From the NCBI GenBank assembly GCA_009869945.1, contig WIXG01000298.1, positions 1 to 64,000 on the forward strand: a stretch of 64,000 nt of DNA, written 5' to 3'. The position numbers and the translations under genes were made by a program. Positions 17,397 to 42,477 of the stretch are shown one piece after another (the stretch's first letter is position 1; each line of letters starts with the position of its first letter). The notes beneath the pieces are model-generated. The model saw nothing but the letters and a program-made list of their open reading frames with translations. It was not told the DNA's origin and did not search any database. This DNA comes from Mesaphorura yosii. Lineage: Eukaryota; Arthropoda; Collembola; Poduromorpha; Tullbergiidae.

Positions 17397-17621
17397 TTAG
17401 TGGTAGTCTTAAGTCTGTTAGTACAATGCAAATGCAATGGCTAGAAGGAATTTGTACTCGAGCTAGAATCTTAATACACGTAAATTCAAGTTCATTGCTT
17501 GTGACTGACGTGCTCGCGTAATTGTTGGAATGGAATGCTCGATTTATTCAATAGATTTGGCAATTCAGAATTTTGGGAAGTGTAATTTTGATTGGCAATT
17601 TTAATTTAGAATTTTGTATAA

Positions 17622-18129
17622 TTAATTAATTCTGCAGCCCGAGTCGAGATTGATTTCATTTGACGATCCACGCTCTACACGGACGGAATTTTGGGCATGG
17701 AAGTGAGTCGGTCGACCATGTCCATCCAGCAGCGCCAGCACGTACCTCTGCCCAAAGGTGTACACGTCGTATTGGTTGATTGGATCATGTCTCACGTGTT
17801 GGAGAAAATAAACTGGGAGTTTTTGCTCACTCCACCATTGGCCATTATTGTGCTGCAATGAAAGTCGTCAGTCAAGCTCACGTGCAGGAAAATTGACTGA
17901 TGAGCACAAGGGTAGAGTTCGGGCAAATTACTTGAATGGTTGGGTGCTGAAAAGCATCCTGGACATCTGCTGGGGTGACCGTGATCACACTATTCTTGTC
18001 TTTACCATACTCTCTTCCCAACCGCCTGCGGAGCCAGTCGTTCCATCGCGCTCGGTTCCAGTTCGCGTAGCTGGTGTCCTCCTGAGGATTCAGGACATGC
18101 TTACGCTGGAAGTCTTCCCAGGTTGGCAT
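17622..18129 (-). CDS. Putative cysteine-free RNase A (pancreatic-type ribonuclease) homologue
   Basis: Two exons, 18129-17932 and 17852-17622, joined by a phase-0 GT-AG intron of 79 nt, give a 142-residue basic protein. It matches the RNase A catalytic signature block by block: FQRKH near the N-terminus (the FxxxH of His12), KDKNSVI (Lys41-x-x-Asn44-Thr/Ser45), then ADVQ eleven residues after the lysine exactly as in bovine RNase A, NNGQ fourteen residues after that Asp, and PTHFHA near the end (His119-Phe120). The cysteines expected at 26, 40, 58, 84, 95 and 110 are all replaced; the only Cys is four residues from the C-terminus. No signal peptide follows the ATG at 18129; the frame stays open upstream only to an in-frame TAG near 18228. 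It converges on dynein. Seen: motifs and spacing. Inferred: RNA cleavage, perhaps intracellular. Alternative: a bacterial-toxin-type RNase A fold acquired by transfer, or chance. Confidence 0.6.
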
Positions 18130-18533
18130 TTGGGCTCGGCTGGTGATTGGTAACGGGGTGGTTATCCGCAGATGAGCTGGCTCGGCGTCGGTGGTGGCCC
18201 AGGCAGCCGATAGTGATGGTGGATGCTACATGCTAGCCTTCTGGGAATCGACGCAGGTGAAGAAGCCACCCTGCAGTGCTCCAGCCTGTCTAAACCCCAT
18301 AGCCTGGTGCCGAGGTTTAGTTGACATCGTCGAAGTCACGGAACGCATGTCCATTTCCATGACATTAACAATCAGTTCGATGTCGTATGTAAGGATTAAT
18401 GTGATCTAGTGCGTGGACGTGGGTAAAAGGTGAATGGCAGTCGCAAGTATTTTGAAGTCGGCTGGCTTAACCGGATCACTAATTAGACTGATCGAGTCTT
18501 GACTTGACGACTTGACAGGTCTCAACAATTGAG
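18130..18533. other. Possible 5' region of the RNase A-like gene
   Basis: The minus-strand frame continues upstream of the ATG at 18129 for about 33 codons to a TAG near 18228, and is open again beyond it to ATGs near 18360. No hydrophobic leader is seen, and I could not place a convincing upstream splice junction. Confidence 0.35.
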
Positions 18534-18834: not shown

Positions 18835-19159
18835 TTAGCAAGAAGCGTGGTTCTTGCGCAGTCTAAAACGCAATACTGCTGCAGCTATAAAACCGAGTCG
18901 TGTTTCTCCCACCAGCCTCTCGGCGATCTCTAAGTGCCGCTCCAGGCAGGGGCTGTAGAATCTGTGATGACAGACTTGCTCAAGGTCTGAGTTCAGGAAC
19001 TGCGACGAAATCTTCTAGCTGCTCCATGCAAACTGGGCAGTCCATGATGAGGCGCCGCTCTTCTTCACTCGTGACTATTTGGTCAATGCCGATTGATTGA
19101 ATGATTGGTAAACGAAGAATGCGAAAGTTATTGGCTAAATCGCTCCTTTTTATACTCAT
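18835..19159 (-). pseudogene. Frameshifted RING-finger-like gene remnant
   Basis: From the ATG at 19159 the minus strand encodes 59 codons ending in CPVCMEQLEDF (first RING Cys pair), then stops at 18980-18982. One base out of frame, at 18981-18835, the coding continues as VCHHRFYSPCLERHLE, the expected second half of a RING (Cys-x-His-x-Phe-x3-Cys). The last Cys-x2-Cys pair is missing. This suggests a degenerate E3 ligase fragment with a one-base lesion. A short unrecognised intron is possible, but no GT-AG pair fits. Confidence 0.45.
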
Positions 19160-20058
19160 GTTGGGAGTAGTCGGCTGGGCAAAGTCAAATTTACGTACAA
19201 GGAAATGAAAGAAATTGAGGTTAATACTAGTACTGAACCTGTCTGAAACATCACCGAATCGAGTTCACAACTCAGTTTGTGCACTATTTGTGAGCATATG
19301 AGTGACCTTTTGTTCAGTGAAAGTGAAAGACAGTAAAGTTTTATTACAAGGCAAAGGTCAAGAGTTGACTGAGTGTCAAGGCTCGACTGACTTGCTGACT
19401 GGCAGCTCGCGCGTCTATTACTTAGCCAAAATTCCACCTAGAACTGGATTTGGCTAATAGAAAAATTCCTAATTCAGAAAGATGAAAAACATGTCCAGCT
19501 CTGTACACAAGATAGTTGCTGGAAAAAATAATTCTAAGAAAACTGAAAAGTTTATGCTCAAAGGTCAACGTGCAGCATGACGCGATGACCGATAAAACAA
19601 TAATCTGATTAATGTAAACATTGATCAAAAAGTAAACGAGCTAATCTAGTCGCGCATGCATGTTCAGGTCAGGGTTGCTGCATCTCTGTTTCTCACACTA
19701 TTTAAACACGTTTCATGATGCACGAACTGGATTCGAAAAAAGTACGAAATGGAATGCATACGCACTCACAGCAATAAGCAAATTATGTCTTGACAAATCC
19801 TCATTTCAATTCTCATTGATGAAAACCTGTATGTATGTAATATGGAAATGCAGATCAAGAAGTAGAAAATTCACACGCGCGCAGGCGCTAGGCCCAGCCT
19901 CTAGTCCTACTATAAACTCGTAAATAGTGCCTTTTTAGTCATATCGCATTTCATCAATTCCATCTTTTGCACACACTGAAATTAAGAACTGTCGCACGTC
20001 CACTAAGTCATCAAACATTCATCACTACAACCGAAAAACCTGCTGTCTGCTATTAAAG
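19160..20058. other. Intergenic, AT-rich
   Basis: About 900 bases. I see no coding frame with protein-like composition, no RNA gene and no clear repeat. Confidence 0.5.
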
Positions 20059-39868: not shown

Positions 39869-41321
39869 CTAATCGGTAAGGAGTGTGTCCTCGATCCAAC
39901 TCTTGAACGCACCCACACGCGTAAAAATTGCGTACTTCTTTGAGTCGCACAGCGCCCGATTGTCCGGATCCAGCGGACCATGGCTGACGATGCCCTGCAA
40001 GTAGTGCAGGCCTCCGGGCCCATCGTCCTCAAAGATAAGCCCCGCCCCCGAATCCCCATTGCACACGGCGATGCCCGTAGTGTGCCCCGCGCAGATCTGA
40101 TTGGTGGACGGAACGAAGCCCAGCACGCGCTTGCATTCGCGGGCGGAGAGGACGGGTAGCGTGGCCCGCTTCAGAGTGGGGGACACGGCCCCTGTCTCGT
40201 CGACCCCGAAGCCGACGACGGACCCGACGGAGCCCGCGCTGAGCTGGATGCGTTCGCGCACTTCGTGCTCGCGCCCGTACAAAGGGAAGCAGACGGGGTA
40301 CACGTAGTCTGAGATCGGTGCGGGGACGAGCAGGCGGATGAGGGCGATGTCCGCCTCGTACGAGCCCGGGTTGTAGTCCTCGTGCACCACGATAGACTTG
40401 ATTGGCACCAAGACGTTCGTTTGCACGTGGGCGCGCCGCGAGCCGACCTGCAAGTCCAGCGTCGAGCTCGTTGCCGACAGAACGACGCGGAGCGCTGAGG
40501 TTCGTAGGGGCCCGCCGCGCCCGCTCGACACGCAATGCGCAGCGGTAAGGAGCGCGTCGGCGCTGATGAGCGTTGTCCCACAAATGTAGTGGGCCTCATC
40601 CCCAGACGGGCTCACGGCGAAGAGGGCGGCATTCCACGGATACTCGAGCGAATTCGCCGCGCTTCCATTGAGGATGTAGTACGAGAGCTCGGGAACCTTC
40701 GGAATTCCGCATTCTGCCGTGAAACCAATAATTTTTAATTATTTAGTCAAATACCGGTGCGTACTTCAATTCTTAATATTTTACCCAGTGTGCACACAAA
40801 ACTCCGTTTGCTCTTCCTCCAGGCTCCCGCCGCCGTGCAGAGAACGAGATAGGACGCCGATCCGCTTCCGGCAGCTTTGTAGCGGGACATGCAGGTCACT
40901 TTCAGCTTCGTTCCTGGCATGGCAGGTCTGTCCTGCCAGCAAAGTTTGGGCACTCCACCCTCGACCCCAGGAGCCACACATTCGTAGGTGGTGCCCTCTT
41001 CCGGCGGCAGCGGCGGGCAAAGGCGCACTTCCCCGCCTGCGGATGCGGGCCCTGCCATCTTCGTTGTCGTCGTGGGGAAGTCGAGGGCAGCCGCGATGGC
41101 GTGGTCGCCACCGTCCCAGGTTTGGGCGGCGCTATTGAAGTCGGCGCGGGGTCAGGGAAGGGCCTGGGCATAGGAGGGGGTGAGGGGGCAAGCGCGGTGG
41201 GGGGTTTCCTGAAAGCCCCACAGTACGCGAGATCCTCATCTGAACCGTCCGCGCAGTCTTTTCGGGAGTCGCAGAGCTGCCCACTACGGAATCCTTGCCC
41301 AAGCCCGTTCACGCAGACGTA
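39869..41321 (-). CDS. LDLa-CCP-serine protease (modular serine protease-like), chymotrypsin fold
   Basis: Three exons, 41321-41112, 41058-40785 and 40713-39869, give 442 codons with no own ATG or signal peptide. An LDL-receptor class A module (CDSRKDCADGSDEDLAYC) comes first. A Pro-rich linker follows, then a Cys-rich region with a CCP/sushi module (CWQDRPAMPG...VTC...VLC...GAW...FVC), then a trypsin-fold domain. His is in LLTAAHC, Asp in DIALIRL and Ser in CNGDSGAG, so the triad is complete. The residue six before the Ser is Ala rather than Asp, arguing against trypsin-like specificity. The first intron (41111-41059, 53 nt) has weak sites but restores frame exactly. The order recalls insect modular serine proteases that start proteolytic immune cascades. 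It lies in frame behind the upstream protease homologue, separated only by one TAG, so the two may be one gene. Confidence 0.72.
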
Positions 41322-42477
41322 CTACCCTTGCGCGGTTGCAATATTCGCGTTCATCCAGGGCAGGTTTTCTGCGACGGTGACAAGACTCACGAAATGCTCC
41401 ATGCCCGACTGCGCGTCAGCGCAGGAGCTGTAAGATTTCGTGATCATCCCAGCCAGGTACCAGCGCCCGGAGTACCACGTCGCGAGCGGAGTTCCGTCGA
41501 TGAATCGGTCGCCGACGTGGGGCTGGCTTTTAGTTTTATGTTGGTTTGTGGTTCTGTCACAGGGCAGCGCCCTCTGGCATTCTGGCCCACAAAGATCCGC
41601 CTCCGTGAGATTGTAGTACACGTTGTTCAGGGCCAGACCTCCGCTCCGCCTGAACCCCGACAATCTCATCGGTCCAACCAGAAAAGGCTGATTTACCGCG
41701 GTCGTCTTGAAAACCGCGGTCTCCGCTGGCGCTTCGACGCAAATTGGGCGGACGACGGCGGAGACATTCATCGGCTCCCGTAAACGGATGATGGCAAAGT
41801 CGTGCATGGAATGCCCGTACATGGAGCGGGGATGCGGGCGAACATGGTCGATTTCGAGCACCTGTGAGTACGAATCCATGACGAGGTCCTTCCGGTCCTT
41901 CACCCCGACCGCGACGACGATGCGCGAAGCAGCCTGTGCGACGAGAGAATTCATCCGCAGCTCGGCGCCGGAATTCGGCACTGCCTCCCAAAATTGTCGT
42001 CCTCCTGAATAAGAAATATAAAAATACAAAAATCTTACAGAAATTCGTGGATGGTCCAAAATAATTTTGCATCGAAACCACAAAATTTTAATGCAGTCAT
42101 AAAAATTTGTGGGAATTACTAGTAATGAGTGTGGAGCGGCCAATGATAATTGCGGACATTCCATTGTCGATAAACGACGCTGTCCGAGAGCCTGACTGGT
42201 CCTCTGGTGGACCTTTCACGAGAATGAGCGCCGTCCAGGGCGCCTTGAGCCGGACGTCTTGCCCGCCCCCGTCCACGCGTACGGTCGTTTTTCCGCAGTG
42301 GGAACTCGCCATTAATTGTCCGGCGACGGTGTGTCCTTGTAATTGAAATAGCATCAGGGTCAGGAGCGGAATCGAGACCAAGAGTATCCGAGAGCATGCT
42401 AGCACCGGCACCCGAGGTCCGAGACTGGGACACGGAAACCTTGCTGACGACGGTCGCTGTGGCGATGACGATGACAT
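41322..42477 (-). CDS. Non-catalytic serine protease homologue (SPH)
   Basis: Exons 42477-42120 and 42004-41322 encode 346 residues. A hydrophobic signal or signal-anchor (RILLVSIPLLTLMLFQLQG, about residues 28-46) precedes a chymotrypsin-fold domain. DFAIIRLREP keeps the Asp region. The His block after STLIT is replaced by a short unrelated stretch, and the GDSGGP block reads VGDRFIDGTPLATW with no Ser, so the domain should be inactive. SPHs act as cofactors or regulators in clip-protease cascades. The C-terminal helix ENLPWMNANI is present. A 69-nt segment at 41390-41322, starting GTGAGT and ending TAG, could be spliced out in phase 0 to join the LDLa-CCP-protease part. Confidence 0.75.

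Follow-up and report, generated by a model that had tools for sequence, protein, structure and literature searches.

Whether the RNase A superfamily exists outside the vertebrates is the question raised by a small minus-strand gene at positions 17622..18129 of contig WIXG01000298.1, of which a stretch of 64,000 nt (the window, by which the whole of that stretch is meant) was analyzed. Reviews call the superfamily vertebrate-specific, and one of them states that, without a known invertebrate intermediate, the likeness to a bacterial toxin suggests convergence, the origin of the superfamily being given as unknown (PMC5964141, PMC3845642). A report of an invertebrate RNase A was not found in the open-access literature, which was covered in part and mostly through titles and the openings of abstracts. 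Its genome, probably that of an arthropod, contains three copies that look catalytic, this gene included, and, judged from sequence, they most probably form a branch of the RNase A superfamily that is divergent, poor in cysteines and was originally secreted. An arthropod family that has all the catalytic residues would open the question of the superfamily's origin to a direct test, and RNase A, the model in which the coupling of folding to disulfide formation was worked out, would have natural relatives managing without its disulfides. The initial annotation of the window had proposed an arthropod RNase A homologue that is cysteine-free, cytosolic and possibly derived from a bacterial toxin; the homology, the three catalytic residues, the lack of the RNase A cysteines and the probable arthropod host were retained after the analyses below, the cytosolic location and the bacterial-toxin origin were not.

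Gene structure and catalytic residues

The gene encodes a protein of 142 aa in two exons (18129-17932 and 17852-17622, minus strand) that join in frame. Exon 1 (17932..18129) covers residues 1-66, with His11 (codon 18099-18097) and Lys43 (codon 18003-18001), while exon 2 (17622..17852) covers residues 67-142 and the stop, with His116 (codon 17705-17703) and Cys139. Between them lies a predicted GT-AG intron of 79 nt in phase 0 (17853..17931, minus strand), and the gene would be spliced there. A putative polyadenylation signal, AATAAA, can be read in the sequence at 17543..17548 (minus strand), 74 nt beyond the stop. A check of the sequence reproduced the coordinates, reading frames, GT-AG intron and motifs that the initial annotation had reported for this gene.

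The counterparts of His12, Lys41 and His119 of bovine RNase A are His11, Lys43 and His116, so that the claim that all three catalytic residues are in place was borne out; a counterpart of Asn44 is present as well, and the Thr45 position is occupied by Ser. The spacings from the Lys to ADVQ and on to the NGQ tetrapeptide had been said to equal those of bovine RNase A, and at 11 and 14 residues they are indeed identical in the two proteins. From the first His to the Lys there are 32 residues in the window protein vs. 29 in bovine RNase A, and from the Lys to the second His 73 vs. 78. The single cysteine of the window protein, residue 139, aligns with none of the eight bovine cysteines; the description as cysteine-free is therefore right for the eight RNase A cysteines, all of which are absent, and too broad for the protein as a whole, in which one Cys remains.

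Paralogues in the same genome

A protein search of the genome (93 Mb, 1127 contigs) recovered two further copies, C385 (39% identity) and C463 (42%), and genome searches with each of these paralogues brought up no additional strong copy. Both begin with a short first exon that has the form of a typical signal peptide in a hydrophobicity scan, followed by a predicted phase-1 intron (78 or 112 nt), and their cores are continuous open frames without an intron at the site where the window gene has one. Counterparts of the catalytic His, Lys and His follow each other in order in both paralogues too, and the motifs FQxxH, KxxNS, Leu-x-... Leu105-Ala106 and PxHF are common to all three genomic copies. 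Neither paralogue keeps ADVQ and NNGQ to the letter, and nor do two aligned non-mammalian RNase fragments, so the exact match of the window protein to them is partly luck. Each paralogue has two cysteines, one at a Cys-Gly motif and one near the C terminus; in the window copy the first family Cys has been lost and the one at the C-terminal end has moved by one residue.

A larger open frame of 398 aa (C45, L018:1366-2556, plus strand) has a hydrophobic, leader-like N terminus, and its first domain scored 22.3 bits with the family profile vs. a maximum of 10.0 over 1000 shuffles. Its E-values in the genome searches are weak (0.029 and 0.143), no clear equivalent of Lys41 or His119 was seen in it, and Pfam was silent; this frame may be a larger, distant and catalytically dead relative of the family. 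Another weak genome match (C445, E 2.57) was discarded as chance after its open frames had been read.

Homology to RNase A

The PF00074 profile, to which the initial annotation had pointed as a check, did not recognize the family: a Pfam search with E up to 10 gave no match for any of the three proteins, PF00074 included, and a PF00074 search of the genome gave none, with no match in the control genomes either. An NCBIfam search of the window protein was likewise without a match. Compared with the PDB by phmmer, the window protein had angiogenin (4per) as its third match, with an E-value of 0.23 and below two rows of an unrelated protein.

A profile built from the three sequences was far more telling, as members of the RNase A superfamily made up 59 of the best 60 of its 73 PDB matches, together with one RES-domain protein. 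A core-only profile, from which the leaders had been removed, again gave 59 of the best 60 (of 68 matches), and hence the matches are not owed to the leaders. The PDB rows are highly redundant, many of them being variants of bovine RNase A, and therefore should not be counted as 59 separate successes; the lowest E-value, 2e-6, belongs to tandem constructs, which score twice, and single chains reach at best 5.5e-4 (profile with leader) and 0.0098 (core profile).

A more independent test was the profile-profile comparison of the three family cores with four vertebrate RNases, of which two are partial. Here hhalign gave a score of 39.0 over 116-117 columns (probability 87-89), vs. a mean of 11.0 and a maximum of 17.6 for 200 column shuffles, none of which reached 39.0, and 9.45 for the reversed profile. 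In the alignment, KxxNS falls on KxxNT and PxHF on PVHF, and the Leu-Ala of the family takes the place of Val-Ala in the late strand of RNase A. In addition, bovine RNase A scored 16.2 bits with the family profile, and the maximum among 1000 shuffled versions of it was 8.1. By these column-shuffle and sequence-shuffle scores a chance match of motifs was rejected. The gene structures, the register of the catalytic residues and the profile homology are direct results at the sequence level.

For the fold, the paralogues were modeled. The model of the first is of low confidence (mean pLDDT, predicted local distance difference test, of 54.8); its helices and strands follow each other as in RNase A, and RNase A entries account for all of its best 50 structure matches. 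The model of the second failed (pLDDT 48.3) and had no relevant structure match. The structural comparison suggested in the initial annotation pointed to RNase A at low confidence with one model and gave nothing with the other. A missing PF00074-like match combined with a different predicted fold had been named there as the outcome that would count against RNase A; the match is missing, and the profile methods and the one usable model point to RNase A. We infer an RNase A fold for the window copy.

Several observations weigh against homology, namely the overall identity of only 18% to bovine RNase A, the absence of the RNase A disulfides along with the silence of Pfam, and the failure of one of the two structure models. 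They would suit an unrelated secreted family that resembles RNase A in a few motifs by convergence or chance. We regard such a resemblance as very improbable, since the likeness to the RNases is ordered along the whole 116-117 columns and goes beyond the motifs, none of the 200 column shuffles and none of the 1000 sequence shuffles came up to the observed scores, and even the low-confidence model of the first paralogue had RNase A only among its best 50 matches.

Leader and integrity of the window copy

No signal-peptide exon of the kind seen in the paralogues was found within 1.1 kb upstream of the window gene. The in-frame stretch 5' of its ATG (18130..18225, minus strand) is open and contains four AG dinucleotides, which are candidate acceptors for an unseen leader exon. 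A leader exon candidate at 19251 (1122 nt upstream) was rejected, as it falls within the 5' portion of a different open frame and candidates of this kind are common: the same scan, which recovers both paralogue leaders, finds them in 33 of 126 one-kb stretches. The window protein may start at the ATG directly before a conserved Thr-Trp, and a leaderless, cytosolic window copy is possible. The cytosolic location put forward in the initial annotation is nevertheless not established, because the missing leader only permits it and the family looks secreted, both paralogues carrying a signal-peptide exon.

The lack of a convincing leader exon, the loss of one family Cys and the shift of the last one by a residue, and an intron that the cores of the paralogues do not show could also mean that the gene in the window is a duplicate in decay without a working protein, the paralogues alone being real enzymes. 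This is unlikely in our view: both of its exons are open, all of the catalytic residues are retained, and its nonsynonymous divergence (dN) from the paralogues (0.58 and 0.60) is the same as that of the paralogues from each other (0.57), which gives no sign of relaxed constraint. Between the two paralogues synonymous divergence (dS) is 1.59; for both pairs with the window copy it is saturated and hence not computable. As judged from such comparisons, the reading frames of all three copies have been under constraint.

Comparison with known systems and origin

In size and in its catalytic His-Lys-His, the family is like the vertebrate RNase A superfamily (PF00074; pancreatic RNase A, angiogenins, fish RNases). 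The vertebrate PVHF is found unchanged in the paralogues and as PTHF in the window copy, and a predicted leader peptide is present in two of the three copies. The differences are that no Cys of any copy aligns with the eight bovine cysteines, whereas members of the superfamily each have three or four conserved disulfides, that about 20 extra residues follow the last catalytic His, that there are predicted introns within the coding region, and that the family lies below Pfam detection. The superfamily signature CKxxNTF, as given in the accessible part of a review (PMC5964141), reads GKDKNSV, TKNVNSF and RKQLNSV in the three copies, with K and N in all of them, C in none, Ser for Thr in all and F in one. 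Because of the missing cysteines, the departures from the literal signature and the failure to reach Pfam's cut-off, the gene was not filed as an ordinary member of the RNase A family; going by its sequence, it represents a divergent homologous branch and very likely works like RNase A.

Toxin domains with the RNase A fold are also known from bacteria and are without disulfides, and the family could have come from the transfer of such a bacterial gene that later gained introns and leaders. Bacterial proteins with this fold do exist (PMC9970974, PMC5964141), and CdiA-CT of Yersinia kristensenii and MafB2-CT combine an RNase A-like fold with RNase function (PMC9970974). These are C-terminal domains of large polymorphic toxins, whereas the window protein is free-standing, with 142 aa in two exons; its acid residue is the vertebrate-type His, in contrast to Thr276 and Tyr278, which are described at the acid-His position of the Yersinia toxin (PMC9970974). 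Two short family patterns had 170 pattern matches and 0 confirmed relatives among 84,980 prokaryote species, and no relative was found in viral contigs, plasmids or phages, in searches that reach close relatives only. The PxHF and KxxNS motifs are of the vertebrate type, and the PDB profile matches listed comprise vertebrate RNases and no bacterial toxins. With no relative found in these searches, limited to close relatives, and a His as acid residue as in vertebrates, the bacterial-toxin origin suggested in the initial annotation is not supported, and we consider it quite improbable. The EndoU family is said to be anciently linked to the RNase A-like superfamily (PMC11275989); there are no EndoU entries among the PDB-profile or structure matches listed, and Pfam was silent.

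Proposed mechanism

For a branch homologous to RNase A, we propose an RNase A-like fold in which the base His would sit on the first helix, the Lys and Asn-Ser on a strand, and the Pro-x-His-Phe of a late strand would supply the acid His. RNA would be cleaved without metal by His-His acid-base transphosphorylation, with the Lys steadying the transition state and Ser replacing Thr45 in the base pocket; for RNase A this mechanism (His-His, Lys, Thr45) is established, and it would apply to the family. The vertebrate disulfides would be dispensed with, the two cysteines of the paralogues could form one new disulfide, and the branch would be secreted by default. The window copy, the expression, activity and cellular location of which we infer, would have lost its leader, or have it in an unrecognized exon, along with one of the two family cysteines, and with these losses it may act inside the cell. 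More tentatively, and with slightly less than even confidence, we suggest that the RNase A superfamily predates the vertebrates, with a disulfide-poor secreted RNase in early animals, disulfides gained in the vertebrate line, and one copy in the present genome moved into the cell by the loss of its leader and of its own disulfide.

Genomic neighborhood and host

Upstream, on the window's plus strand, AAA_9 and Dynein_C domains mark parts of a gene for a dynein heavy chain that runs toward the RNase A-like gene, and a lipase gene lies on the opposite side of the latter. With such neighbors on a contig of 97 kb, the gene sits in an animal genome. Vertebrate contamination was rejected, as the three copies are about 40% identical, lie on three contigs and share 18% identity with bovine RNase A. 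The host is probably an arthropod, because the cuticle domain PF00379 has 66 matches in the genome, all above the cut-off, and a seven-unit TTAGG pattern has 16 overlapping matches on four contigs vs. 0 for the backward pattern, cuticle domains and TTAGG arrays being arthropod markers. A search of the genome for COX1 gave no match. Many of the PF00379 matches fall on one contig (C314), some of them with internal stops.

Rfam and tRNA scans of the window gave no match. At 18838-19264 (minus strand), RING-finger-like open frames have their Cys pairs split over two overlapping frames, CPVC lying in one and the C-x-H portion in the second (16.7 bits with zf-C3HC4, for which the cut-off is 21); an error in the sequence, a short intron or decay of the gene may account for this. 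The stretch 40001-42000 of the window has a GC content of 0.614, vs. 0.496 and 0.455 in the flanking 2-kb stretches.
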